Made by a program: the position numbers and the translations under genes
Shown: one piece after another, positions 7,477 through 23,248 of the stretch
Layout: each line of letters begins with the position of its first letter
How positions within the stretch are numbered: the first letter of the stretch is position 1
The notes under the pieces: generated by a model
Database searches by the model: none
Told to the model about the DNA's origin: nothing
Seen by the model: only the letters and a program-made list of their open reading frames with translations
From: Tatumella morbirosei
GTDB lineage: Bacteria > Pseudomonadota > Gammaproteobacteria > Enterobacterales > Enterobacteriaceae
Assembly: GCF_000757425.2 (NCBI RefSeq)
Contig: NZ_JPKR02000003.1
Span: 248,001 to 312,000, forward strand
Length of the DNA: 64,000 bases
Direction of reading: 5' to 3'

Positions 7477-8964
7477 GTGAAACAACAACAAAAGCTATTC
7501 ACAGGTAAAACGGCTGGTTTCCGCCGAAAGCTTCTGAGCCTTTGTCTTGGGCTGAGTGCATTAAGTGCAGTGCCGGCGATGGCCGCAGAACAGGTACCGG
7601 TCAGCCAGCCCTCAGTGGATCACAGTGATGATGCACTGCTAAAACAAGGGCATTATCTGGCCATTGCTGCTGACTGTGCTGCCTGTCATACCGATCCTGA
7701 AACCAAAAAGACCTTTGCCGGCGGTTACGCTATCCACTCCCCGATGGGGGTCATTTATTCCACCAACATTACTCCTTCGCGACAGTATGGTATTGGTTCC
7801 TACAGCGAGGCGCAGTTTGAACAGGCGGTTCGTCATGGTATCCGCGGTGATGGAAGCCATCTCTATCCGGCCATGCCCTATACCTCCTATTCAGGGCTAA
7901 CGGATCAGGATATTCATGCGCTGTATTACTACTTCACCCACGGGGTTAAACCGGTAGAACAGGCCAATCGCCCGACCCAACTGAGCTTTCCGTTTAATAT
8001 CCGTGAAGCCATGTGGGGCTGGAACCTGCTGTTTCTGAAACAGAAACCGTACCAAAATGATCCATCACAAAGCCCTGAATGGAACCGCGGCAAGTACCTG
8101 GTGGCTAATCTGGAACACTGCGGGGAGTGTCACACCCCACGTAATACGCTGATGGGTAGCGAAACCGGGTCTGCGCAGTACAGCGGGGCGGCCCTGGGGA
8201 GTTGGTTTGCCCCGAACCTGACTTCTGACCGCCTGAGCGGGCTGGGTAGCTGGCAGCGTGATCAGCTGATTACCTATCTGAAAACTGGTCACGTAGCTGG
8301 TAAAGCTCAGGCCGCCGGACCGATGGCGGAAGCCATCACCAACAGTCTGCAATATCTGAGTGATGACGATATCGGCGCCATTGTGACTTACCTGCAAAGC
8401 CTGCCACCGGTCAGTGAGCCAGACCAGGCAAAAGCCACCGGTGATTTTGGCAGTCCCGCAGGCAGCAGCTCAGATTCAGAAGTTCGTGGTACTCAGCCCC
8501 TGGGTTCTGCATTACCGGACGACATGACCGGTAAAGCGCTTTATGACACCACCTGTGCCAGTTGTCATCAGTCTTCAGGAGCAGGTACCGCGGATAATTT
8601 TTATCCATCGCTGTTCCACAATACGGCCACCGGCGGGAATACCCCAAATAATCTGGTCTCCGCCATTCTGTTTGGTGTGCAACGTGAAGTGAATGGTAAA
8701 CAGGTGCTGATGCCGGCTTTTGGGCCTGGCTCAGACGTACAGTCACTGAATGATGAACAGGTTGCAAAACTCAGTAATTACATCTTCAGACAATTCGGCA
8801 ATCCACAGTTATCGGTGACCGCTGATCAGGTGAAAACGTTGCGTGAAGGTGGTACGCAGCCGTTCCTCGCCAAATACGCTGCCGCAGGATCGGCAGTGGG
8901 TGGAGTGATCCTGTTACTGATTATTGTGCTGATTATTGTCCGCATTTCGCGCAAACGTCGCTGA
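7477..8964 (+). CDS. Triheme cytochrome c subunit of 2-ketogluconate dehydrogenase-like complex
   Basis: 495 residues with a signal peptide (about 1-37, ending AMAA), three c-type heme sites (CAACH at 67-71, CGECH near 215, CASCH near 360) and a C-terminal membrane anchor (VGGVILLLIIVLIIV) followed by basic residues. It passes electrons from the FAD subunit to ubiquinone at the outer face of the inner membrane. The start is GTG, supported by CCGGAG 5 bases upstream; the nearby ATG at 7475 is out of frame. It lies 105 bp after the small-subunit gene, with a perfect operator-like palindrome in the gap. The C-terminal anchor is absent from the second complex's cytochrome. Confidence 0.9.
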   Translation: MKQQQKLFTGKTAGFRRKLLSLCLGLSALSAVPAMAAEQVPVSQPSVDHSDDALLKQGHYLAIAADCAACHTDPETKKTFAGGYAIHSPMGVIYSTNITPSRQYGIGSYSEAQFEQAVRHGIRGDGSHLYPAMPYTSYSGLTDQDIHALYYYFTHGVKPVEQANRPTQLSFPFNIREAMWGWNLLFLKQKPYQNDPSQSPEWNRGKYLVANLEHCGECHTPRNTLMGSETGSAQYSGAALGSWFAPNLTSDRLSGLGSWQRDQLITYLKTGHVAGKAQAAGPMAEAITNSLQYLSDDDIGAIVTYLQSLPPVSEPDQAKATGDFGSPAGSSSDSEVRGTQPLGSALPDDMTGKALYDTTCASCHQSSGAGTADNFYPSLFHNTATGGNTPNNLVSAILFGVQREVNGKQVLMPAFGPGSDVQSLNDEQVAKLSNYIFRQFGNPQLSVTADQVKTLREGGTQPFLAKYAAAGSAVGGVILLLIIVLIIVRISRKRR

Positions 8965-9005
8965 AATTGCCGGGATTTTTGAATTTGTAGTCTTTAGAGG
9001 TGGTT

Positions 9006-10637
9006 ATGTCTGAACAATATAGCGCAGATGTGGTAGTCGTTGGTGGCGGCATTTGTGGTGGGACGGTTGCAAAAGAACTGGCAGAAGCCGGGTTATCCGT
9101 ACTGGTGCTGGATGCAGGCCCTCGTTGGGAAAGGGGCGAAGTGGTAGAGAACTGGCGAAATCTGCCGCCGGTGAATAAATCTGAATCTGATTACGCGACG
9201 CCATATCCGGCGGAACCCTGGGCAGTTCACCCGCAACTTTATCCGTATAACAATTATCCGGAAGTTTCGGGCCCGGATGCATCGGCATTTCGTCAGGGTA
9301 TGGTCAAAGGCGTCGGTGGTACCACCTGGCACTGGGCCGCTTCATGCTGGCGTTTCCTGCCGGCAGATATGCAGCTACACACCACCTATGGCGTAGGCCG
9401 TGACTGGGTAGTGAATTACGATGAACTGGAAGATTATTACTATCGGGCAGAGGTGTTGATTGGCGTTAATGGTCCTAACGATACGTCACTGAAGTACGTT
9501 GCACCGCGCAAAAAACCGTTCCCGATGGAGCCTATGCCTTATGGTCCTGCCGACCGCAGGTTCACTGAAGTGGTGGCAACCGCCGGTTATGAAAATACTC
9601 CGGTTCCCCAGGGGCGTAACAGTCGACCGTATGACGGACGTCCGCAGTGCTGTGGTAACAATAACTGTATGCCTATCTGCCCGATCGGCGCGATGTTCAA
9701 TGGTATTCACAGTATTATTAAAGCCGAAAAAGCGGGCGCTAAGGTTCTGCCGAATGCGGTAGTGTATAAGTTTGATACCGATGAAAACAACAACATCACG
9801 GCGTTGTACTACTACGATCCGGACAAGAATTCTCACCGCGTAACGGCACGAACCTTTGTACTGGCAGGTAACGGAATAGAAACCCCTAAATTGCTGCTGC
9901 TGGCGGCTAATGACCGTAACCCAAACGGTATCGCGAACAGTTCAGGCATGGTGGGGCGTAATATGATGGACCACCCGGGAATTCTGATGAGTTTCCAGTC
10001 GGCAGAACCCATCTGGACCGGGGGTGGTTCAGTACAGATGAGTTCCATTACTAACTACCGTGACGGTGATTTCCGCCGTGAACATGCGGCAATCCAGATT
10101 GGGATGAACAATACATCCCAGAACCATAAAGCGGGTGTGAAAGCGTTGCAAATGGGGCTGGTGGGTAAAAAGCTGGATGAGGAGATTCGTCGACGGGCTG
10201 CCTGTGGGATGGATATCTATGTGAACCATGATGTGCTGGCAAATCCGGACAACCGGCTGACCCTCAGTACGGTTCACAAAGATAAACTGGGCATTCCGTA
10301 TCCTCATGTCACTTATGACGTGGGGGATTATGTACGTAAGGCGGCGGTCTCTTCCCGTGAGCATCTGATGACTATCGCCAAACTGTTTGGTGCGACAGAA
10401 ATCGAGATGACTCCGTACTTCAACCCAAACAACCATATTATGGGCGGGACTATCGGCGGGCATGATCCTAAAGATTCGGTGGTGGATAAATGGATGCGTA
10501 CCCATGATCACCAGAACCTGTATATCGCCTCTGGTGGCGTGATGGCTGCGGCAGGGACGGTTAACTCAACCCTGAGTATGGTGGCCTTATCATTGCGGGC
10601 TACTGACAGTATCAAACGCGACCTGCAACACGGTTAA
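9006..10637 (+). CDS. FAD-dependent GMC large subunit, 2-ketogluconate dehydrogenase-like
   Basis: 543 residues. The dinucleotide-binding fold VVVGGGICGGTVAKEL lies near residue 9, followed by GVGGTTWHWAASCWRF near 102, a cysteine cluster CCGNNNCMPICPIGAM near 216 and the C-terminal GGTIGGHDP..SVVD and SGGVMAAAGTVNSTLS of GMC sugar-acid dehydrogenases. It oxidises the substrate in the periplasm and hands electrons to the cytochrome. I place the start at ATG 9006, 5 bases after AGAGG, rather than the GTG at 9000. Assignment to 2-ketogluconate rather than another polyol or sugar acid rests on its partner small subunit and on the neighbouring gluconate dehydrogenase. Confidence 0.87.
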   Translation: MSEQYSADVVVVGGGICGGTVAKELAEAGLSVLVLDAGPRWERGEVVENWRNLPPVNKSESDYATPYPAEPWAVHPQLYPYNNYPEVSGPDASAFRQGMVKGVGGTTWHWAASCWRFLPADMQLHTTYGVGRDWVVNYDELEDYYYRAEVLIGVNGPNDTSLKYVAPRKKPFPMEPMPYGPADRRFTEVVATAGYENTPVPQGRNSRPYDGRPQCCGNNNCMPICPIGAMFNGIHSIIKAEKAGAKVLPNAVVYKFDTDENNNITALYYYDPDKNSHRVTARTFVLAGNGIETPKLLLLAANDRNPNGIANSSGMVGRNMMDHPGILMSFQSAEPIWTGGGSVQMSSITNYRDGDFRREHAAIQIGMNNTSQNHKAGVKALQMGLVGKKLDEEIRRRAACGMDIYVNHDVLANPDNRLTLSTVHKDKLGIPYPHVTYDVGDYVRKAAVSSREHLMTIAKLFGATEIEMTPYFNPNNHIMGGTIGGHDPKDSVVDKWMRTHDHQNLYIASGGVMAAAGTVNSTLSMVALSLRATDSIKRDLQHG

Positions 10638-10652
10638 GACAATACCTATAAC

Positions 10653-10675
10653 AAAGGCCCCGTTTCGGGGCCTTT
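10653..10675. terminator. Bidirectional Rho-independent terminator
   Basis: AAAGGCCCC / GGGGCCTTT stem of 9 bp with a GTTTC loop, between the convergent large-subunit gene and the second complex's cytochrome gene. A-run and T-run on the two sides suit termination on both strands. Confidence 0.85.
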
Positions 10676-10719
10676 TGGTGGTCATGGGTAGCACTCTTTC
10701 CGGGAAAGAGGCTGACTGA

Positions 10720-11946
10720 TTACTTCTCTAAAGTACTGCGCATATTTTTCACATCGCTGGCGGTCACAGACGGCGCTGCATTGCCCCAGCTGTTGCGGAT
10801 ATAGGTCAGCACGTCGGCGACATTCTGATCAGTCAGGTTCCAGCCAAATGCCGGCATGGCCGGAGCGGTTGGCGCCGCTGCGGTCCCCCCGGCACGGCTG
10901 CCCGCCAGCACCACATGAATCAGTGAAGCAGGATCAGCGGCATTAACCAGTGGTGCATTCGCCAGTTGCGGGAACAGATGCGAAACACCCTGGCCCTGTG
11001 ACACATGGCAGGCACTGCAACGATCGGCGTAAATCGCTTTACCATTTACCATCTGGCCATTATCCGCAGCCAGCGGTTGGGGTTTAGTGCTGTCATTTTT
11101 AAGCGATTTCAGATACACCGCCGCGGCATTAAGATCATCATCTTTCCAGTACTGGGTCGAATTCTCTACCGCTTCAGCCATTGGCCCTGAGGCTATATCG
11201 TATTTGTTGGCACCGGTTTTCAGGTATTCGACAATTTCCTGTTGGGTCCACTTTCCAATACCACTATGAGTATTGGCGGTAATATCTGGCGCGAACCAGA
11301 CACCCAGTGAGCCACCTTGCAGGAACTGACTGTCTTTATCGCCACCCAGCATGTTTTTAGGGGTGTGGCAGGTGCTGCAATGCCCCAGTCCCTGAACCAG
11401 GTAGGCACCCCGGTTCCATTCGGCTGATTGCTTAGGATCCGGCTGGTATTCACCTTCGGTGAAGTTCAGCATATTCCAGACATGCAGCGAGGTACGAATA
11501 TTGAACGGGAATGGCAGCTGATTGGTATTAACTACCCGGCTCACTGGCTCGACCGTCTGCAGATAGGCCCACAGTGCGCGGTTATCGTCGGTAGTGACTT
11601 TGGTATAGGCAGTGAACGGCATCGCCCCATAGAGTAAGTGGCCGTCGCGGCTGTGGCCCTGACGCATTGCATTCTGGAAATCTTCGAAGGTCCATTTTCC
11701 AATGCCAGTTTCCGGGTCAGGGGTAATATTGGCACCTAGCAGCTTACCAAAGGGGGTATCAATCGCAACCCCGCCGGAGAATAAAGGATGCCCTGGTTCT
11801 GTATGACAGGCGGTACAGTCACCCAGCTGGGCAATATAACGGCCTTTACTCACTAAATCCCAGGAATCAGCACCACTCTCGGCCTGTGCGTAACCCGCGG
11901 TCAGCAACAGTAAACTGCCGGCGGTCAGCATTAATTTTTTCATCAT
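10720..11946 (-). CDS. Triheme cytochrome c subunit of gluconate 2-dehydrogenase
   Basis: 408 residues. A signal peptide (about 1-22, GYAQA) is followed by three heme sites: CTACH at 44-48, CSTCH near 193 and CSACH near 312. Length and layout match cytochrome subunits of membrane gluconate dehydrogenases. There is no C-terminal membrane helix, unlike the cytochrome at 7477-8964. The ATG overlaps the large-subunit stop by 4 bases (ATGA), so the two are translationally coupled. It should transfer electrons from the FAD subunit to ubiquinone. Confidence 0.92.
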   Translation of the reverse strand: MMKKLMLTAGSLLLLTAGYAQAESGADSWDLVSKGRYIAQLGDCTACHTEPGHPLFSGGVAIDTPFGKLLGANITPDPETGIGKWTFEDFQNAMRQGHSRDGHLLYGAMPFTAYTKVTTDDNRALWAYLQTVEPVSRVVNTNQLPFPFNIRTSLHVWNMLNFTEGEYQPDPKQSAEWNRGAYLVQGLGHCSTCHTPKNMLGGDKDSQFLQGGSLGVWFAPDITANTHSGIGKWTQQEIVEYLKTGANKYDIASGPMAEAVENSTQYWKDDDLNAAAVYLKSLKNDSTKPQPLAADNGQMVNGKAIYADRCSACHVSQGQGVSHLFPQLANAPLVNAADPASLIHVVLAGSRAGGTAAAPTAPAMPAFGWNLTDQNVADVLTYIRNSWGNAAPSVTASDVKNMRSTLEK

Positions 11947-13703
11947 ACCATCATCTCCCCGGGCTGTTTCAGGTACTGGGTACGGATATAGTGAGCGGTA
12001 CGGAAGGCAAGGGCGCCGACTGTCCCGGTCGGGTTATACCCGGGGTTGTTAGGAACCGCAGAAGCTCCTACCACAAACAGGTTGGGGATATCCCAGACCT
12101 GACAGAATTTATTGACAGCACTGGTGGAGGGGTCAGCTCCCATGACAAAGCCACCGACCACATGAGATGACTGGTAGTCATTATTGGCCCACGGAGCGGT
12201 ACGCGGTTGCTTCTGGATCTGTACCGGGTTCATACGTAACGCAATTTCACCGACCTTATCAGTAACGTATTGCGCCATGCGCATATCGTTGTCCGGGAAG
12301 TCGAAGGTAATGCGTAACAATGGACGGCCATGTGGGTCGGTATAATTTGGGTCGAGGGACAGGTAGTTAGTGCGTTGCGGGTAACTGCTCGCCTCACAGC
12401 CAATGCTCATATTGGTCAGATAGTGCTCCGCGGTCGCTTTCTTCCATGCCGATCCCCAGCGTGGGGTACCCGGCGGGACCGGACGTGAGGCAATAGGTGC
12501 GGCGCCAATCGGTGTCACGCGGGTCGAACCGCCGCCGACAAAGCCTAATCCTGAGTGGTCGAAGTTATCGTTGTTAAATTCGTCGATACCCATCCCGATG
12601 GCACCGCCACCGATAAACGGGTTAAAGATCTGATCTTTGAAGAATAAACGGACACCATTCGCCGTCTGATAGCAGTAATTACGTCCGGTGGTCCCTTTAC
12701 CGGTGACCGGGTCATAAGGCACACCCACATTCGACAGCAGCATCAGACGCACATTTTCAAAGGTAAAGGCGGCCACAATCACTATGGAAGCGGGCTGTTC
12801 ATAACGTTCGCCGTTACTGTCGATATACACCACCCCGGTGGCTTTTTTACCGCTACTGTCTTTCAGAACTTCCAGCACTTCACAGTTGGTGCGTGCTTCA
12901 AAGTTTGGCATGTTAACCACCGCCGGTAACACATTGACGATAGCACTGGCTTTCGAATAGTTCGCACAGCCATAGTTAGTACAGAAGCCACAATAGGTAC
13001 AAGGCCCCATGGTCACACCATACTGGTTGGTATAGCTCTGAGAGGCGAGGGCAGAAGGGACGTTAAAGGGTTTATAGCCCATCTCAGTGGCAGTTTTGGC
13101 AAATAAAGTCTGCGCGATGGTCTGAATATTGGGCGGGTTAGGATAATCACGGGTGCGTGGTCCTTCGAACGGATTCCCCCCTTCTATAATCTTACCCTGA
13201 ATATTCCCGGCTTTACCGGAAATGCCGGCCACCTGTTCAAAGGCGTCATAAAAGGGTTCCATCTCTTCCCAGGTGATACCCCAGTCCTGCAGAGTCAGGG
13301 CCGGGTCTACTTCCTTGCCATAGCGTTCGCGCAGATGACTGGCCAGCCGGAAATCAGCAGGCTGATAGCGGAAGGTGAGGCCCGCCCAGTGGTTACCGGC
13401 GCCGCCGGTACCGTTGCCGGGGTGGAATGAACCCCAGAAACGCATCGGCAGTGCTGTTTCAGAAGGATTATTACGCATGGTACAGGTGTTCTGTGCAGGC
13501 CGTAGCATCAGCTCTTCACGGGCGTTGTAGCGCAGTTCATCAGGCGCTGTAGCGACGTTAAAATCTCTGGCGGTATCCCGCCACGGGCCGCGTTCCAGCC
13601 CAATAACATTCAGGCCCTGATCACAGAGTTCTTTGGCTAAAATCGAACCGGCCCAGCCGAGGCCAACAATTACCACATCGGTGGCAGGTAATTTTTTTGT
13701 CAT
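11943..13703 (-). CDS. Gluconate 2-dehydrogenase flavoprotein (GMC) subunit
   Basis: 586 residues. FAD fold VIVGLGWAGSILAKEL near residue 11, then GTGGAGNHWAGLTFRY near 107, a cysteine cluster CTYCGFCTNYGCANY near 226, and the GMC end region HVVGGFVMGAD..NKFCQV and NPGYNPTGTVGALAFR. This is the catalytic subunit oxidising D-gluconate to 2-ketogluconate in the periplasm. It has no signal of its own and is expected to be exported with the Tat-targeted small subunit, encoded 4 bp upstream. Assignment is stronger than for the first complex because subunit 3 is of the gluconate 2-dehydrogenase family. Confidence 0.92.
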   Translation of the reverse strand: MTKKLPATDVVIVGLGWAGSILAKELCDQGLNVIGLERGPWRDTARDFNVATAPDELRYNAREELMLRPAQNTCTMRNNPSETALPMRFWGSFHPGNGTGGAGNHWAGLTFRYQPADFRLASHLRERYGKEVDPALTLQDWGITWEEMEPFYDAFEQVAGISGKAGNIQGKIIEGGNPFEGPRTRDYPNPPNIQTIAQTLFAKTATEMGYKPFNVPSALASQSYTNQYGVTMGPCTYCGFCTNYGCANYSKASAIVNVLPAVVNMPNFEARTNCEVLEVLKDSSGKKATGVVYIDSNGERYEQPASIVIVAAFTFENVRLMLLSNVGVPYDPVTGKGTTGRNYCYQTANGVRLFFKDQIFNPFIGGGAIGMGIDEFNNDNFDHSGLGFVGGGSTRVTPIGAAPIASRPVPPGTPRWGSAWKKATAEHYLTNMSIGCEASSYPQRTNYLSLDPNYTDPHGRPLLRITFDFPDNDMRMAQYVTDKVGEIALRMNPVQIQKQPRTAPWANNDYQSSHVVGGFVMGADPSTSAVNKFCQVWDIPNLFVVGASAVPNNPGYNPTGTVGALAFRTAHYIRTQYLKQPGEMMV

Positions 13704-13707
13704 TGTC

Positions 13708-14457
13708 TTATACCTTAGCGTTCCAGGCGGCGCTGCCCATGATGGAAATCGGGACTAAATCCAGTTTCTGGTCGGTTTTGGTCAGATAGTCACGGTAGTC
13801 ATAACGGGCGCCAGGGAAACCAATCATTTTCCAGCTCACCATATTGCGGTTTCCGCCATACACCGGATCGGAAAAGAAACCTTCCATGGTATTGGTCAGC
13901 ACCTGATCGAAAAACATCTTGCCACTAATGCCGGTGAGATTGATTTCTCCCTGTTCCAGACCCGTCAGCACTTCATCCCGGGTGGCGCTATCCAGTTGGC
14001 TAAACGGTTTCTGGTATTTTTTCTGACAATACTCTGTGAGTCCGGCCAGTCCGAGACGGTAACGTTCCCGTGGTACTAATGGAGACTGATCGCCCTGAGC
14101 CGGAGTTCCTTGCTGAAACGGGCCCCGCATATAGTTGCGGCTGGCATCGCCGTAACTGCCTGCCAGTTGCCGGTCAATAAATACCGTGCAGCCGGCATCT
14201 TTGCCGCTCACTGACAGTTCATCGGCAGGGATCAGTTGGCTGACAATGGCATCCACTTCGGTGGCTTCTTCCTGAGTGAGGAATTTAAGGCCCGGAGTAG
14301 CATCAGTGACAGGGCTGTTATGATCAAACAGCATCCAGCGGGGGATACCAGTGATAGTCGTGGCATTGGCACCACCGACCGCGGCTACGGTCAGGCCTGC
14401 AGCAGAACCAGAGAGCAGCCGTCGCCGGCTAATCCCTTTTGATGAAGGGTCAGACAT
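13708..14457 (-). CDS. Gluconate 2-dehydrogenase subunit 3 (small, Tat-exported)
   Basis: 249 residues from the chosen start. A twin-arginine signal (GISRRRLLSGSAAG) opens the protein. The rest matches the Gluconate_2-dh3 family: FLTQEEATEVDAIVSQLIP near 47, FIDRQLAGSYG near 80 and GFFSDPVYGGNRNMVSWKMIGFPG near 200. I start at ATG 14457 because AGGAG lies 6-7 bases upstream; an ATG 21 bases earlier (14478) has no ribosome site. First gene of a three-gene operon running to 10720. Just upstream (around 14512-14527) lies a palindromic TGGTTTGTAAACCA that might be an operator. Confidence 0.9.
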   Translation of the reverse strand: MSDPSSKGISRRRLLSGSAAGLTVAAVGGANATTITGIPRWMLFDHNSPVTDATPGLKFLTQEEATEVDAIVSQLIPADELSVSGKDAGCTVFIDRQLAGSYGDASRNYMRGPFQQGTPAQGDQSPLVPRERYRLGLAGLTEYCQKKYQKPFSQLDSATRDEVLTGLEQGEINLTGISGKMFFDQVLTNTMEGFFSDPVYGGNRNMVSWKMIGFPGARYDYRDYLTKTDQKLDLVPISIMGSAAWNAKV

Positions 14458-14733
14458 TTGATACTCCTGTGTCGACATTGCACAAATCCGGAAATATCCG
14501 GAACGAAATAAAACGTGGTTTGTAAACCATCTTCAGTAAATGTTAATTTATATTTATCTGTTTGTGTAATTTATTTGTGCAAACGAACGGAATAACCCTC
14601 TGTTCCATTGAAGGCAGTGGCAATGATAGCCCGGGGACCGGTGGAAAAATAAAGACCAGGCCGCGATTAACAGCGGTGAAGGGAGGAAGGTTACGGAGAA
14701 AATCAGGCGGTTGGGAAAGATGCAGAACAAAGC

Positions 14734-14765: not shown

Positions 14766-15659
14766 TCAGTCAGGCTGAGGCACCGGCTGAGGAGAAGAGG
14801 AAGAGCGTGGCCGTGTTGGGTGGCGGTAATTAATGCCAATGGCGATGGCGATTAAACAGCAACCCGCGACCAGCCGTAGCAGCGGCACATCGTTCCCCCA
14901 TAGCAACATATTAATAATCAAGCCGACCGGTACATGCAGTTCGTTAAACACCGACAAAGTCGCTACCGATACCAGGGTACTGCCTTTTGCCAGCCAGTAG
15001 CTACCCAGCGCGGTAGCGACCACACTCAGGTAGATCAGCACTGACCATTGCGCGGTGGTGTGTGGCAGATGGCCTTGCTGACCAAAGAAATAATAAAGCG
15101 GTCCGGTAATACAGATGGCACCAAGGAAAAAATGACCAAACAGCCTGGGTAATGCGACTTCCGGCTTGTATTTCAACAGCAGGCGACGACATAGTACCTG
15201 ACCGGCAGCAAAGGTCAGATTAGCCAGCTGTAATAACCAGAATCCCTTCCAGAAATGACCGGTCAGTGGGTGATAGTGGATGACAATCCCTCCGGAAACA
15301 GCAAACATTGCCGCCAGCAGTGTCCACGGGTTAAAACGTCGTTCCAGTGCATTATTAATCAGGCTGATATACAGCGGGGTCTGGGTGGTAAACAGTAACA
15401 TCTCTGGTACCGTCAGCATGGTATAGCTCTGATATGACAGAGCATAAGTCACCCCAAACTGGAGTGCTCCGGCAATCCACAGACCTGCCACCAGTCGTGT
15501 CGGGAGATTGCGCCAGACCATAAATGGCAGGAAAATCAGGGTGCCTGCCAGGGTCCGGATAAACACGGCAAAATAACTGTCGACCTGGCCCGCCAGGAAA
15601 TGGCCGGTCAGACTGAAAGAAGATCCCCAGAGGAAGGTAACGATCGCAAGATACCACAC
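14766..15659 (-). CDS. EamA/DMT-superfamily transporter
   Basis: 297 residues with about 10 hydrophobic segments in two repeated halves, the EamA (drug/metabolite transporter) layout. It opens with WYLAIVTFLWGSSFSLTGHFL, a common first helix with the WG-S motif, and ends in a basic, Ser/Pro-rich cytoplasmic tail. The start is GTG; an in-frame stop upstream excludes a longer form and the ribosome site is weak. It is divergent from the nitroreductase operon and could export that operon's product, but nothing in the sequence proves it. Confidence 0.8.
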   Translation of the reverse strand: MWYLAIVTFLWGSSFSLTGHFLAGQVDSYFAVFIRTLAGTLIFLPFMVWRNLPTRLVAGLWIAGALQFGVTYALSYQSYTMLTVPEMLLFTTQTPLYISLINNALERRFNPWTLLAAMFAVSGGIVIHYHPLTGHFWKGFWLLQLANLTFAAGQVLCRRLLLKYKPEVALPRLFGHFFLGAICITGPLYYFFGQQGHLPHTTAQWSVLIYLSVVATALGSYWLAKGSTLVSVATLSVFNELHVPVGLIINMLLWGNDVPLLRLVAGCCLIAIAIGINYRHPTRPRSSSSPQPVPQPD

Positions 15660-15780
15660 AGACTTGTAAACCTATAAGCATGAATTTAGTTTACGATTAT
15701 AATGAGACTCTTCACTCCTGTGCAAGTGTCCGGTATTCTTTGCTGCTTATTGTTATGTTCCTGGTCCAGGTTGTCCTTTG

Positions 15781-16482
15781 ATGCAAAACTCAGATAATTC
15801 ACTGCCGGCGTTTCTGGCTAACCGCTCTTCCTGCCGCGCGTTTTTACCCGATCCTGTGAAGCTGTCTGATGTGCAGATAATGTTGAACGCGGCACGCAGT
15901 GCCCCCAGCGGTGCCAATCTGCAACCTGGCGCGTTTCATGTCTACACCGGCCAGCCGCTGGCATCACTGACTCAGCAACTCTCCCACATTGCACAGACAA
16001 CGCCGGTAGAAAAAGAACTCTACAGCTACTTTCCGCAACCGATGTCCGCAATACTGAAACAAAGACAGCGTGATGCAGGTTACGCGCTCTATCAGGCGCT
16101 TGGTATCGAAAAACGCGATATTGCCGGACGTCGTCGTCAGTTTGACGCCAATTATCGCTTTTTTGACGCACCGGTAGGTATTGTGGTCACTATTCAGCGT
16201 GATATGGGGGCCGGTTGTTTTATGGATCTTGGTATGGCGCTGATGAACTTTTTCCTGACTGCCGGTCATCTCGGTTATGGCTGTTGCGGTATTGGCGCAC
16301 TGGCAAATTACGGTCGGCATATTCATCAGTGGCTACAGTTACCTGATGAGCAACTGGTGGTATGCGGGATTGCACTGGGTAAGGCCGATCCTGAGGCACC
16401 GGTTAATCAATTTCGTACCGGACGGGCAGAGTTAGAAGAATTTAGTACCCTGCACGGATTTTCCGCTCAGGAGGCAGAGTGA
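15781..16482 (+). CDS. Nitroreductase-family flavoprotein
   Basis: 233 residues. The N-terminal RSSCRAFLPDPV and MLNAARSAPSGANLQPG (from about residue 13) are the FMN-binding signature of the family, and GYGCCGIGAL near 165 is the second conserved segment. Members transfer hydride from NAD(P)H to nitro groups, quinones, enoates or flavin. First gene of a tightly overlapping operon with an acyl-adenylating enzyme and a thiolase-like protein, so it probably tailors a CoA-bound or free acyl product. A TTG three bases earlier is possible; the ATG is preferred. Confidence 0.8.
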   Translation: MQNSDNSLPAFLANRSSCRAFLPDPVKLSDVQIMLNAARSAPSGANLQPGAFHVYTGQPLASLTQQLSHIAQTTPVEKELYSYFPQPMSAILKQRQRDAGYALYQALGIEKRDIAGRRRQFDANYRFFDAPVGIVVTIQRDMGAGCFMDLGMALMNFFLTAGHLGYGCCGIGALANYGRHIHQWLQLPDEQLVVCGIALGKADPEAPVNQFRTGRAELEEFSTLHGFSAQEAE

Positions 16483-17636
16483 CAGTTATTTCACCGAACA
16501 GTATTAGTTTCCATGGTCAGCCGTTGGCAGCGAGTCAGGGAGAACAACCTGATGCTCTGCGTCGTTTGCTGGCCGCCTGGCAGCAGGGAACCACCTTCCG
16601 TGCCATCAGCCAGGCTCCGTGGATTGAAGCAGGTGACGGCGAGCAACATATTGAATGTACCACCTGTGGCAGCAGCGGATTACCCAAAGTCATTCGTCGT
16701 CACCGCCTCTCCTGGCAACGTACCTTTGAGATCAACCGGCAACTTTTTAATCTGAGTCCGGTAGATCGCAGTGCTGTGTTTGGCGGGCTAAATCACTCAT
16801 TGTCACTGTACGGGGTGTGTGAATCGCTGGGACTGGGAATAACCGTCGAGGTGATGGCGGGTATGCGGCCGCGTAATCAGGTCAGATTACTGGCTGAAGC
16901 TGGAGTCACGGTGCTCTATATGACCCCGACACAACTACGTCTGCTGACCAGCCGTGGTGATGTCCTGCCGAAGATCCGTTTGATTCTGTGTGGCGGTGGA
17001 AAGCTGGACAGTAAAACGCGGCAGCGGGCAACAGAATGCTTCCCGGAAGCGGCAATACATGAATTTTATGGAGCTTCTGAAACCAGCTTCATTACACTCG
17101 CGGACCAGCAGACACCGGAAGGGTCGGTAGGCAAAGCTTATCCCGGGGTGACGATTGAAATCCGCCATGCCCATCAGGGTATTGGTGAGGTGTGGGTCAG
17201 CAGCCCTTATCTGTTCCGTGGTTATTCGCTGGGTGGCAGCAGTGAAACCCGCTGTGACGGTGACTTTATGACGGTCGGCGAGCTGGGTTGGCTGGATGAA
17301 CAGGGCTATCTCTGGCTGGCTGGTCGCCGCAGTCGAATGGTGACGATTGCCGATCAGAATGTGTTTCCTGAAGCGGTCGAAACCCTAATTAGCCAGAGGC
17401 TGGAACAGGGCGCTGTCGCGGTGATTGCCTGCCCGGATGCACAACGTGGCCATTTGCTGCACGCATTTATTCAGGGAGAAAGTGATCCGCAACTGGAAAA
17501 GCAGTTACGCAGTGATATCACCCGGCAACTTGGCAGTGCGATGGTGCCACGACATTTTCATTTTCTGGCGGAGTTTCCGTTACTGAATGGCGGTAAAGCT
17601 GACCTGCAACGTTTAACGGCGCTGCTGAATTTATGA
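16479..17636 (+). CDS. Short AMP-binding acyl-CoA synthetase/ligase-like protein
   Basis: 385 residues, well below the usual 500 or more. The adenylation core is present: TTCGSSGLPK phosphate loop at 61-70, FYGASETSFI near 196, GELGWLDEQGYLWLAGRRSRMV near 265 and a C-terminal NGGKADL with the catalytic Lys. What is missing is most of the N-terminal subdomain usually found before the phosphate loop. GTG start overlapping the nitroreductase stop by 4 bases with CAGGAGG upstream. It should activate a carboxylic acid as the adenylate and possibly the CoA ester for the following thiolase-like protein. Substrate unknown. Confidence 0.75.
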   Translation: MTVISPNSISFHGQPLAASQGEQPDALRRLLAAWQQGTTFRAISQAPWIEAGDGEQHIECTTCGSSGLPKVIRRHRLSWQRTFEINRQLFNLSPVDRSAVFGGLNHSLSLYGVCESLGLGITVEVMAGMRPRNQVRLLAEAGVTVLYMTPTQLRLLTSRGDVLPKIRLILCGGGKLDSKTRQRATECFPEAAIHEFYGASETSFITLADQQTPEGSVGKAYPGVTIEIRHAHQGIGEVWVSSPYLFRGYSLGGSSETRCDGDFMTVGELGWLDEQGYLWLAGRRSRMVTIADQNVFPEAVETLISQRLEQGAVAVIACPDAQRGHLLHAFIQGESDPQLEKQLRSDITRQLGSAMVPRHFHFLAEFPLLNGGKADLQRLTALLNL

Positions 17637-18751
17637 GCGTCATTATCGCGTCATTACGAACTGCAGTGGTTCCGCGTGGCGGAGCATTCAACGAATTAAT
17701 GCCCCATCAACTGGCAGAACCGGTGATCCGGGCTCTGTTGCAACAGACCGGGATTGCCCCGGAAGACGTATCGCAGTTGATTATGGCTAATTCATTGGGG
17801 GCCGGGGGAAACCCTGCACGGGTCGCCGCCCTGGCTGCTGGTCTGGACCAGCTTTCAGGGCTCAGTATTGATACTCAGTGTGCCGGTGGGCTGGACGCGA
17901 TAGCGCTGGCGGCGGCTCTGGTTGACAGCGGGGCAGCAGAGATTGTGATTGCCGGTGGCGCAGAAAGTTACTCACGCCGCCCATTACGGGCCAAAACTTA
18001 TGCCGACCAGCGCCCCGCAGAATTCTATACCCGGCCGCCATTCGCGCCGGATCCTGACCAGGATCCGGATATGACCGTGGCTGCCGCTGAACTGGCCCAA
18101 CGTTATCAGTTGACCCGGCCTGATCAGGATGACTATGCGGTCAACAGCCACCGTAAAGCGTTAGCTGCAGCAGAATGCTTAACCAAAGAGATTGTGCCAC
18201 TGGCCGGGGTGAGGGGGGATATCTACCCCCGGAATCTCAGCCTGCGTCTGGCACAACGCACACCGGCATTATCCGGCACGGTCAGCTTAGCCTCCACCGC
18301 GGTGGAAGCCGACGGGGCGGCTTTTTGTCTGGTCGTGTCTGACAGAACAGCCGCCAGTCTGGGTTGTCGGTATGGCTTGTCGGTCACCGGTTATCAGACA
18401 CTGGGGGCGGATCCGCGGTTACCGGGCTATGCCCCGGTGGAAGCTATTCGACGGTTGTTGGAACGTTATCCGCAGTATCAGCCACAACATTGTCTGACTG
18501 AAATGATGGAAGCCTATGCGGCACAGGCGATGGTATGTATTACGCAGACCGGTTTGTCGATGGATAACGTCAATGTCGGGGGCGGGGCGCTGGCCAGGGG
18601 ACACCCGATAGGTGCCTCAGGAGCCATTCTGGTGTGCAGAATGTTTCATGAACTCCGCCGTCGTGACCAACGGAGTGGTTTATGTGCTATCGCTGCGGCC
18701 GGGGGACTGGGCTCAGCTATGCTGTTGACCCCGCGGGCAACGGTGGGTTAG
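17633..18751 (+). CDS. Atypical thiolase-family acyltransferase
   Basis: 372 residues in the thiolase fold. The nucleophile region DTQCAGGLDAIALA (near residue 83) and the GHPIGASGA histidine motif (near 323) are intact. Two usual catalytic positions are not: the NEAF motif reads MEAY (EMMEAYAAQ near 286), and the final CxG-type Cys appears to be Ala (CAIAAAGGLG near 351, with a Cys three places earlier). It may thus be a biosynthetic condensing or transacylating enzyme rather than a degradative thiolase. ATG overlaps the upstream stop by 4 bases (ATGA). Confidence 0.75.
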   Translation: MSVIIASLRTAVVPRGGAFNELMPHQLAEPVIRALLQQTGIAPEDVSQLIMANSLGAGGNPARVAALAAGLDQLSGLSIDTQCAGGLDAIALAAALVDSGAAEIVIAGGAESYSRRPLRAKTYADQRPAEFYTRPPFAPDPDQDPDMTVAAAELAQRYQLTRPDQDDYAVNSHRKALAAAECLTKEIVPLAGVRGDIYPRNLSLRLAQRTPALSGTVSLASTAVEADGAAFCLVVSDRTAASLGCRYGLSVTGYQTLGADPRLPGYAPVEAIRRLLERYPQYQPQHCLTEMMEAYAAQAMVCITQTGLSMDNVNVGGGALARGHPIGASGAILVCRMFHELRRRDQRSGLCAIAAAGGLGSAMLLTPRATVG

Positions 18752-19168
18752 CCGGTATTGTTGCCGGTTACCCCACGCAGGTTCGTCCGGGTCAGGTGCT
18801 GACGTAATAATCAATCAGTGCGATAACTGTTTTCACTGGCCCCCCTAATAAATACAACTTTCTGTGATCAGACCCAGGTTTTTTTAGTTCAGGGTGATTG
18901 CTTTGTGGTTGTTAATTAAAAGTTATGCGCGGAATCACATAATAGGTGTGCAGAGTTTTACCGGCAGTGCTTTCAACCGTTATTGTTCATATGAACAATA
19001 AATAAACTTATGTTCATCTGAGTTTGGCGGTTTAGCAGGTTACCTGTGGGGGTGGAGCTCTGTCGATGCCACGGGAACGGAAAAAAACCGCCTCTCAGAT
19101 GAGTGCTCAATGGTGCGGTCCCGGCTTGAAGGTTGTGAGTGGGGACCGGTAAGCAGAAGGAAACCCTG
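18752..19168. other. Intergenic region with a perfect palindrome
   Basis: About 417 bp between the thiolase-like gene and the hyi-like gene. It holds a 20-bp perfect palindrome (18981-19000) and presumably the hyi-like promoter. No convincing gene is seen. Confidence 0.5.
18981..19000. promoter_or_regulatory. 20-bp perfect palindrome, candidate operator
   Basis: TATTGTTCATATGAACAATA is a perfect inverted repeat about 170 bp upstream of the hyi-like gene; a further TGTTCAT half-site lies at 19011-19017. Spacing suits a dimeric repressor at the promoter. The cognate regulator is not known. Confidence 0.5.
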
Positions 19169-19948
19169 ATGATCCGCATCGCAGCAAACCTGACCATGCT
19201 GTATAACGAATATGATTTTTTTGACCGTTTTGCAGTGGCCGCCGAAGATGGTTTTCAGGCGGTAGAGTTCTTTTTCCCCTATCCCTGGCCGGCTGAAAAA
19301 ATCCGACAGGCACTGGAAAAGCATGATCAGCAACTGGTGTTATTTAATATGCCACTGGGCGACTGGGATGCCGGTGATCGTGGCTTCGCCGGGCAGGCAG
19401 GGCGGGTCGATGAATATCAGCAGGGAGTCAGTCTGGCCACAGATTATGGACGGCAGTTACATCCCCCGAGGATCAATTGTCCTTCCGGTCCGGCAGAAGA
19501 TACCCCTGAATCCTGGAGTACCCTGAAACAAAACTTTGAACATGCCGCAGAAAGCCTGAAAGCGGAAGGGATCCGCATGGTGGTGGAACCGATAAATCAT
19601 AATGACGTTCCCGGGGCTCTACTGTCAGGTACCGGACAGACGGTGCGTTTTCTGGATAGCCTGAATACTGACAATCTGTGGGTTCAGTATGACCTCTATC
19701 ATTCTCTGCGCGCCGGTGAAGACCCGTTTAAAGTGTTACCGGCGTTTATCGACAGGATTGACCATATCCAGATTGCCGATGTGCCAGGCCGTCATCAGCC
19801 AGGTACCGGGGATGTGGATTTTGAGAAACTCTTCTCACTGCTGGAACAGCTCAACTATCAGGGCTGGACCAGTATGGAATATCATCCGCAGGGCGATACC
19901 CGACAGAGTTTTTCCCGTCTCCGGGAGATGGGATTACTGCCACGCTGA
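19169..19948 (+). CDS. hyi: Hydroxypyruvate isomerase-like TIM-barrel protein
   Basis: 259 residues, equal to the usual Hyi length. Family segments are IRIAANLTMLYNEYDFFDRF at the N-terminus, GFQAVEFFFPYPW near 29, a metal-ligand Glu in MVVEPINHNDVPG near 137, QYDLYHSLRAGED near 170 and IQIADVPGRHQPGTGDV near 201. Hyi enzymes interconvert hydroxypyruvate and tartronate semialdehyde. I chose ATG 19169 because AGAAGG lies about 7 bases upstream; an earlier in-frame ATG (19139) has none. It stands alone, without glyoxylate-carboligase genes, so the substrate could differ. Confidence 0.8.
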   Translation: MIRIAANLTMLYNEYDFFDRFAVAAEDGFQAVEFFFPYPWPAEKIRQALEKHDQQLVLFNMPLGDWDAGDRGFAGQAGRVDEYQQGVSLATDYGRQLHPPRINCPSGPAEDTPESWSTLKQNFEHAAESLKAEGIRMVVEPINHNDVPGALLSGTGQTVRFLDSLNTDNLWVQYDLYHSLRAGEDPFKVLPAFIDRIDHIQIADVPGRHQPGTGDVDFEKLFSLLEQLNYQGWTSMEYHPQGDTRQSFSRLREMGLLPR

Positions 19949-22275: not shown

Positions 22276-22452
22276 ACCCCGGAGACATAAAGTGCGCCAG
22301 CTTAAATCGGTTATTGATAGCAACGCTGTAGCGCATTACAATTCATGTACGGAGTTTATCCGTACATTTCTGGGCGGTTTGTGATGCGACGACTAATGCA
22401 CATAGTAAGTCATGTCAGCCAAACCTCAACAGCGTAAACCTCCGGAGTGCTT

Positions 22453-22743
22453 ATGACCGCCGTAAAAAAAGAAAGAATCGATTTAAGATTAAACACCGAG
22501 ACCAGAAGTATGATCGAGGAAGCTGCGGCAATGAATAACCAAAGTATTACCCAGTTTATGGTTGAAAGCGCCGCAGAAAGAGCCGAACTGGTTATGGAAA
22601 GACATCGCAGACTGATTCTTAGCGAAGAATCATGGAATCTGGTGATGGAGGCCATTTCCCACCCAACAGCACCTAATGAGCGTCTGAAACGAGCTGCTGA
22701 ACGCCTCGCATCTATGGAGCAGCAAGGTGACAGTAAATTATAA
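22453..22743 (+). CDS. DUF1778 antitoxin (TacA-like)
   Basis: 96 residues. The N-terminal RIDLRLNTETRSMIEEAAAMNNQSITQFMVESA is a ribbon-helix-helix DNA-binding region (cited here by RIDLRLNTET and TQFMVESA), followed by a helical toxin-binding tail. ATG 22453 has CCGGAG 5 bases upstream. The gene overlaps the acetyltransferase toxin gene by 17 bp. Such antitoxins neutralise the toxin and repress the operon promoter. Confidence 0.88.
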   Translation: MTAVKKERIDLRLNTETRSMIEEAAAMNNQSITQFMVESAAERAELVMERHRRLILSEESWNLVMEAISHPTAPNERLKRAAERLASMEQQGDSKL

Positions 22744-23248
22744 AATAGAGATGATCAATGAGGCTTTTGAGTACGACCTGAATACCTTCAGCTGCGGCGA
22801 ACAAAGCCTCGATATTTTTGTCAGACAACACCTGTTAAGACAGCATCAAAGAAACATTCTTCGCGGGTATGTTCTTATCGCCGACGACCATAAGCCAAAG
22901 ATAGTGGGGTACTATACGCTTTCAGGCAGTAGTTTTGAGAGAGAGTCTTTGCCTTCTAAAAGCCAGCAGAAGAAAATCCCTTATTCTAATGCTCCGGCGA
23001 TAACTCTGGGCAGACTTGCGATAGACACTTCGCTTCAGGGCAATGGCTATGGTGCAATACTGGTGGCGCATGCAATGAAAGTCGTGTCAAAAGCTTCTGA
23101 CGCGGTCGGGATACACGGTATGTTTGTTGATGCCCTGAATGAGGGGGCCAGAAAATTTTACCGCCAACTGGGCTTTACCGAACTTAAATCGCCTAATGAA
23201 AATTCATTGTTTATCTCAACTTCGTCGATAAAACTCCTCTATCCTTAA
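22727..23248 (+). CDS. GNAT acetyltransferase toxin (TacT-like)
   Basis: 173 residues. The acetyl-CoA-binding motif LGRLAIDTSLQGNGYG (near 88) and the C-terminal FYRQLGFTEL (near 144) are those of TacT/AtaT-type toxins, which acetylate charged tRNAs and stop translation. GTG start inside the antitoxin gene with a GGAG-like site upstream, typical of coupled toxin-antitoxin operons. A hairpin (CCGCCA / TGGCGG, 23268-23285) follows but has no T-run. No frame damage is visible, so the pair looks functional. Confidence 0.87.
   Translation: MTVNYKIEMINEAFEYDLNTFSCGEQSLDIFVRQHLLRQHQRNILRGYVLIADDHKPKIVGYYTLSGSSFERESLPSKSQQKKIPYSNAPAITLGRLAIDTSLQGNGYGAILVAHAMKVVSKASDAVGIHGMFVDALNEGARKFYRQLGFTELKSPNENSLFISTSSIKLLYP

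Follow-up and report, generated by a model that had tools for sequence, protein, structure and literature searches.

What does a run of three overlapping genes, encoding a nitroreductase, a ligase and a thiolase, do beside a divergent transporter gene in Tatumella morbirosei? The three genes, hereafter the triad, lie in a 64-kb stretch of that genome (the window), whose numbering is used for all positions given without a locus name. Judged from sequence, the triad and the transporter gene, which resembles that of the biotin importer BioP, appear to belong to the biotin (BirA) regulon. We put the probability that together they form a biotin-starvation module, with biotin or a vitamer of altered side chain as its substrate, at about one half.

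The triad, its divergent neighbor and the BirA-box-like site

On the plus strand, the triad comprises a nitroreductase-family flavoprotein gene (15781..16482, ATG start with an alternative TTG start at 15778; assigned by Pfam), a gene for an N-terminally short adenosine monophosphate (AMP)-forming ligase (16479..17636, GTG start; Pfam, motifs and structural model) and a gene for a thiolase with an altered active site (17633..18751, ATG start; Pfam, model and alignment). A first-pass annotation of this DNA had described three genes with 4-bp overlaps that act as one unit. Coordinates and junctions agree with the overlaps, which read GTGA between nitroreductase and ligase and ATGA between ligase and thiolase, and genes that overlap in this way do look like one unit. 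The nitroreductase matched Pfam Nitroreductase over the cut-off (E 1.2e-24), with 3gr3 as the closest solved sequence (E 5.3e-39); no NCBIfam equivalog scored over its cut-off for this protein. The triad was found in all six Tatumella genomes examined.

Divergent from the triad, on the minus strand at 14766..15659, lies a gene for an EamA-family protein that the same annotation had read as a possible exporter. By its similarity to BioP (YigM) of Escherichia coli, itself of the EamA family, it is a putative biotin importer: the two proteins are 39% identical over 292 residues (E 1.35e-64), and in each of the six Tatumella genomes this gene encodes the only BioP homologue at E ≤1e-20. Together with the adjoining BirA-box-like site described below, this speaks against an exporter. 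The BioP comparison drew on 20 of the 40 genomes surveyed. In 10/10 genomes tested from other genera of this family, the best match to BioP is closer, at 64–96%. Unlike E. coli BioP, the Tatumella gene is divergent from a triad. Against TIGR00950 the protein scored 193.7 bits, under the cut-off of 230.2, so the compound transported is unproven.

Between the divergent genes, a 33-bp inverted repeat (15664..15696) begins 4 bp before the start codon of the BioP-like gene and differs at two positions from the symmetric consensus that we take to describe the BirA box. Our first pattern for this box was composed after the repeat had been seen, so that its exact match to that pattern means little. 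With ≤3 mismatches allowed, shuffled sequence gave 0.17 matches per window; the observed count of 2, a single site counted on both strands, was reached in 6 of 100 shuffles. A sigma-70-like promoter of the BioP-like gene (15696..15724, minus strand, 10/12 matches) has its -10 element abutting the box; the region holds 3 promoter-like sites compared to 2.4 in shuffles, which is not above chance.

Across the T. morbirosei genome, only two sites have ≤2 mismatches, one at the triad/importer locus and the other at bioA/bioB. At the same threshold, four Tatumella genomes (G000, G002, G004 and G005) have sites at the bio operon and the triad locus, Tatumella saanichensis (G001) has one at the triad locus only, and G003 has one at the bio operon only, its triad-locus site having 3 mismatches. 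The box-like site occupies the same place in 6/6 Tatumella and in Cedecea. The Cedecea site, at 3 mismatches, is alone in its 21-kb locus at the ≤4-mismatch level. Additional sites turn up at 3 mismatches, a level at which the reversed control gave 0–3 per genome and strand. TIGR00122, the model of the BirA DNA-binding/repressor domain, scored over its cut-off in 7/7 genomes tested.

A weaker BirA-box-like sequence, with 4 mismatches in L020 (L020:3753), was seen at 14517–14550, upstream of the minus-strand gene that ends at 14478; it may be a chance match.

Active sites of the ligase and the thiolase

The ligase matched Pfam AMP-binding (E 6.7e-25) over profile positions 170–383 of 384 and AMP-binding_C (E 2.1e-7). 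Its P-loop motif, GSSGLPK, begins only 63 residues after the N-terminus, which makes the protein N-terminally short. Compared to an ANL acid-CoA (coenzyme A) ligase, it retains the P-loop and the C-terminal Lys (Lys373) but is missing a complete N-terminal subdomain. In an alignment of 44 ligases, Lys373 is invariant and the P-loop Lys falls outside the columns conserved at ≥90%. The predicted structure (predicted local distance difference test, pLDDT, 93.8) matched best to MenE-type acyl-CoA ligases (5bur_A, tied with other MenE entries; Z 30.5, root-mean-square deviation (rmsd) 3.0, 364 residues aligned), from which it differs in that its AMP-binding domain lacks the initial portion.

The thiolase matched Thiolase_N (E 1e-37) and Thiolase_C (E 9.9e-27) and scored 277.6 bits with the subfamily model TIGR01930, above the cut-off of 240.55; among the 25 of 44 matches listed, no specific (equivalog) thiolase model was over its cut-off. 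Its sequence can be aligned with Zoogloea/PhaA-type thiolases from one terminus to the other, and its predicted structure (pLDDT 96.9) shares the fold of these T1 thiolases along the whole length, superposing on 4n45_A with Z 56.4 and rmsd 1.6 over 364 aligned residues, nearly tied with the other structural matches listed. Relative to the T1 enzymes, in what we take to be Zoogloea numbering, the nucleophile Cys89 and His348 are kept as Cys83 (codon 17879..17881) and His324 (18602..18604), whereas Asn316 of the NEAF motif is replaced by Met292 (18506..18508) and the second Cys, Cys378, by Ala354 (18692..18694); all four codons were placed by alignment and lie on the plus strand.

These results bear out the first-pass annotation on both enzymes. 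It had the ligase lacking most of the N-terminal subdomain, in keeping with a Pfam match that begins at profile position 170 of 384, and the thiolase keeping its nucleophile and His while losing the Asn and the second Cys, as the register of Met292 and Ala354 now shows. The alignment that it had named as a possible refutation places the nucleophilic Cys in register and Met292, not Asn, at the Asn position, and the structure prediction that it had suggested gave a confident model that superposes on biosynthetic thiolases.

The same changes recur among relatives. In the 80 thiolases that could be read, from 79 loci and the window (the row of L097 was a fragment), Cys83, Met292 and His324 are present throughout and position 354 is Ala in 78 and Ser in 2, counts that are biased because the scan patterns took in the motifs around 292 and 354. 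The four residues are also identical in a 13-row alignment, 7 rows of which are plasmid proteins reachable by plain tblastn. Among four gammaproteobacterial members from a profile search, three agree at the four residues; the remaining one reads HDAF where the Asn would stand, with Ala at 354. On these alignments, and with the motif bias of the scan as a caveat, the altered active site is a trait of the family. The loss of the acid and base of thiolase Claisen chemistry argues against ordinary condensation. A thiolase family with the nucleophile and without Asn316 and Cys378 also offers a test case for what this fold does without Claisen chemistry.

Relatives, biotin transporters and biotin synthesis genes

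A scan of a genome collection covered at least 593 stretches, 256 of which encode a relative; we analysed the best 80 of these 256, mostly from Rhodobacterales. The genome-neighborhood search, as the first-pass annotation had advised, found ligase and thiolase side by side at all 80 loci; in 63 of them the stop of the ligase gene shows ATGA or GTGA. This adjacency, and the presence of the triad in 6/6 Tatumella, indicate that the gene arrangement is more than chance. BioY (61 loci), BioN (61) and BioM (60) are encoded nearby. The loci outside Rhodobacterales are those of two Tatumella, Cedecea, Breoghania, two Granulosicoccaceae, a Hyphomicrobiales bacterium, two Flavobacteriaceae and one Alphaproteobacteria record. 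At most alphaproteobacterial loci and in Cedecea, the biotin energy-coupling factor (ECF) transporter BioMNY adjoins the pair, where Tatumella has the BioP-like gene. The Cedecea locus (L035:6058-11119) keeps the Tatumella order nitroreductase-ligase-thiolase, and a divergent BioY gene with those of BioM and BioN replaces the BioP-like gene. Ligase, thiolase, nitroreductase and BioY also occur together on six plasmids, from Paracoccus yeei, P. alcaliphilus, Alloyangia, Marivivens, Thioclava and Pseudosulfitobacter.

No member of the family at E ≤1e-60 was found outside Tatumella among the 34 genera surveyed, and the E. coli genomes gave no match. Among 369 Gammaproteobacteria sampled, at least five match at E ≤1e-90, T. 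morbirosei included; in two of the other four, BioMNY is beside the pair, and one of these has the nitroreductase too. As scoring took up to 5 candidates per genome in these Gammaproteobacteria and up to 16 in 120 Roseobacteraceae, carriers may be undercounted. The weakest carrier in the profile counts (G186, 306 bits) scores near a canonical Rhizobium thiolase (292 bits). Several recurrent neighbors (GABA transaminase, AroQ, DprA and TopA) were set aside as linked genes, since they look like ordinary synteny; the gene labelled BioA at L065 and L066 is GABA transaminase, and genes in two Flavobacteriaceae bear a provisional BioF label.

In phylogenetic trees, five canonical thiolases separate from the family (support 100/100), and Tatumella with Cedecea (100/99) sit with Breoghania, Paracoccus shanxieyensis and Poseidonocella inside a nine-row set (100/99). 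Both trees were read without a mistranslated row (own_C4_thiolase), which was included in the one-clade test (p-AU 0.137). This grouping suggests a transfer from alphaproteobacteria. On plasmid pRL12 of Rhizobium johnstonii (L027:6515-9227), a full-length ligase and a canonical thiolase with NEAF have a thioesterase as their neighbor; panB lies some 6 kb off, and the 15-kb stretch holds no BioY. This pair is perhaps an ancestral form that lacks the biotin link.

The best-scoring models, in Tatumella and in the other members tested, were PRK07638 for the ligase and, among equivalogs, PRK06690 for the thiolase, which we take to represent the Firmicute proteins YhfT and YhfS. Both curated cut-offs were missed (209.9 of 518 bits and 248.2 of 498 bits, respectively), and the canonical Rhizobium pair likewise scores best with these two models, under the cut-offs. 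PRK06690 was rejected as a specific marker, with FadA of T. morbirosei at 245 bits and the canonical Rhizobium thiolase at 375 bits. Compared to yhfT-yhfS, the Tatumella side has the N-terminally short ligase, an added nitroreductase and, as read on this side of the comparison, the thiolase changes at 292 and 354. According to passages of two papers, BirA represses bioO, bioY and yhfS-yhfT in Staphylococcus aureus (PMC6391492, PMC7235819), and a passage of a review extends BirA control of these genes to Bacillus subtilis and S. aureus (PMC11089781). As far as these passages go, yhfT-yhfS is likewise a ligase and thiolase pair of the biotin regulon, with a function given as putative (PMC6391492, PMC7235819, PMC11089781). 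The portions of the open-licence literature consulted held no description of the triad and none joining BioY, thiolase, nitroreductase and biotin. The module may be a divergent proteobacterial version of a yhfT-yhfS-type pair, tied to biotin import in many genomes.

T. morbirosei itself has bioA, bioB, bioF, bioC and bioD. Across 54 carrier genomes, bioB scored over its cut-off in 12 (5/6 Tatumella and 7/48 others, the completeness of these 48 not being given) and is lacking from 42, which indicates that the module works without de novo biotin synthesis. T. saanichensis (G001, L034) has no bioB over the cut-off and no bioF match at E ≤1e-60, yet the box is still there, as are the triad and the gene of the BioP-like protein; this species appears to have lost bioB and bioF. 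Outside Tatumella, bioF proved uninformative as a second marker, since in three alphaproteobacteria (G062, G065 and G073) the genes that immediately adjoin bioB score below the bioF cut-off. With most checked carriers lacking bioB, the evidence is against a biotin-making role and narrows the substrate to biotin or a close compound, or else the module to a biotin-sparing role.

Proposed function and rival explanations

A pathway unrelated to cofactors is not supported; the BioP similarity, the BirA-box-like site and the relatives that adjoin BioY/BioMNY point to biotin instead. Taken together, the importer link and the box-like site suggest a role in acquiring biotin or in the response to its shortage, and a ligase paired with an acyl-accepting Cys-His protein implies the thioester of an acid. 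From this we infer a scheme, in its BirA control, its substrate, the order of its steps and all of its catalysis alike. When biotin is scarce, BirA would leave the common box, allowing expression of the triad and of the BioP-like importer. The importer would take up biotin itself or, as seems likelier, a vitamer whose side chain is altered, and the ligase would adenylate the carboxylate of this compound and convert it to a thioester, probably with CoA. The acyl group would then pass to Cys83 of the thiolase. Lacking the usual Claisen acid and base, this enzyme would most likely transfer the acyl chain, release it or cleave it, and not condense two acyl-CoAs. Where present, the nitroreductase may act on that chain in a flavin-dependent redox reaction, and the end result would be usable or retained biotin. 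That this amounts to an undescribed vitamer salvage, in which the short ligase, the non-Claisen thiolase and an optional flavin reductase restore or release usable biotin, is a tentative proposal, and one we would bet against. If true, cells without BioB could live on biotin breakdown products.

Several results weigh against a biotin-starvation module. The nitroreductase lies near the pair in 44/80 loci and is absent near the other 36, and 19/80 stretches lack BioY, two of which are the Tatumella stretches with BioP and four of which end near a contig end. Upstream of the alphaproteobacterial operons, BioR sites were found with one mismatch in 5/77 loci and exactly in none. The Cedecea genome has five further box-like sites with 3 mismatches. 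Finally, Roseobacteraceae commonly lack bioB whether or not they carry the thiolase: among the 120 examined, 17/18 carriers and 85/102 others are without it, and an enrichment of carriers among the bioB-less is not shown.

The main rival keeps the link to biotin shortage and changes the product. Acetyl-CoA carboxylase fails at low biotin, and the module would then offer a biotin-free route to acyl chains or to CoA thioesters of the acyl or malonyl type. Ligase and thiolase are of generic types, the Protein Data Bank matches of the ligase include malonyl-CoA synthetases, the BirA-box-like site suits either role, and cofactor-sparing isozymes are known for other vitamins. However, the close and repeated linkage is to biotin importers, not to lipid genes, and the loss of the Claisen acid and base speaks against acetyl-CoA condensation; we consider such a biotin-sparing pathway improbable. 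Importer linkage and a reductase at many loci would also fit the detoxification of biotin antimetabolites, which exist in the dehydro-biotin type and might enter via a biotin importer, but nothing ties the genes to resistance, and it is not obvious that such a role would call for expression when biotin is short; we regard it as distinctly unlikely.

Supply of a pimelate-type precursor for de novo biotin synthesis would accord with the bio genes of T. morbirosei and with BirA-box-like sites at both the triad locus and bioA/bioB. The absence of bioB from 42/54 carriers rules it out as a common role and leaves it very unlikely for the module at large. Least likely, and slight in our estimate, is the earlier idea of a small biosynthetic pathway, here taken to make a secreted metabolite that EamA would export, with no link to biotin. 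Gene types like those of the triad are common in natural-product pathways, and the sub-threshold TIGR00950 score leaves the transported compound unproven, but this idea has to contend with the BirA-box-like site, the BioP similarity and the BioY linkage in distant genera.

Elsewhere in the window, genes for a GMC-type dehydrogenase and cytochrome c occur in two sets (7477–14478), which are related to each other by blastp and are presumably gluconate or ketogluconate dehydrogenases. Downstream of the triad, 19139–19948 encodes a protein resembling hydroxypyruvate or 2-oxo-tetronate isomerase, below both cut-offs, and among the Tatumella stretches compared this gene is kept in L020 only. At 22447–23248, the gene for a small protein, presumably of DUF1778 type, overlaps one for what we take to be a GNAT acetyltransferase, an arrangement that looks like a toxin-antitoxin pair.

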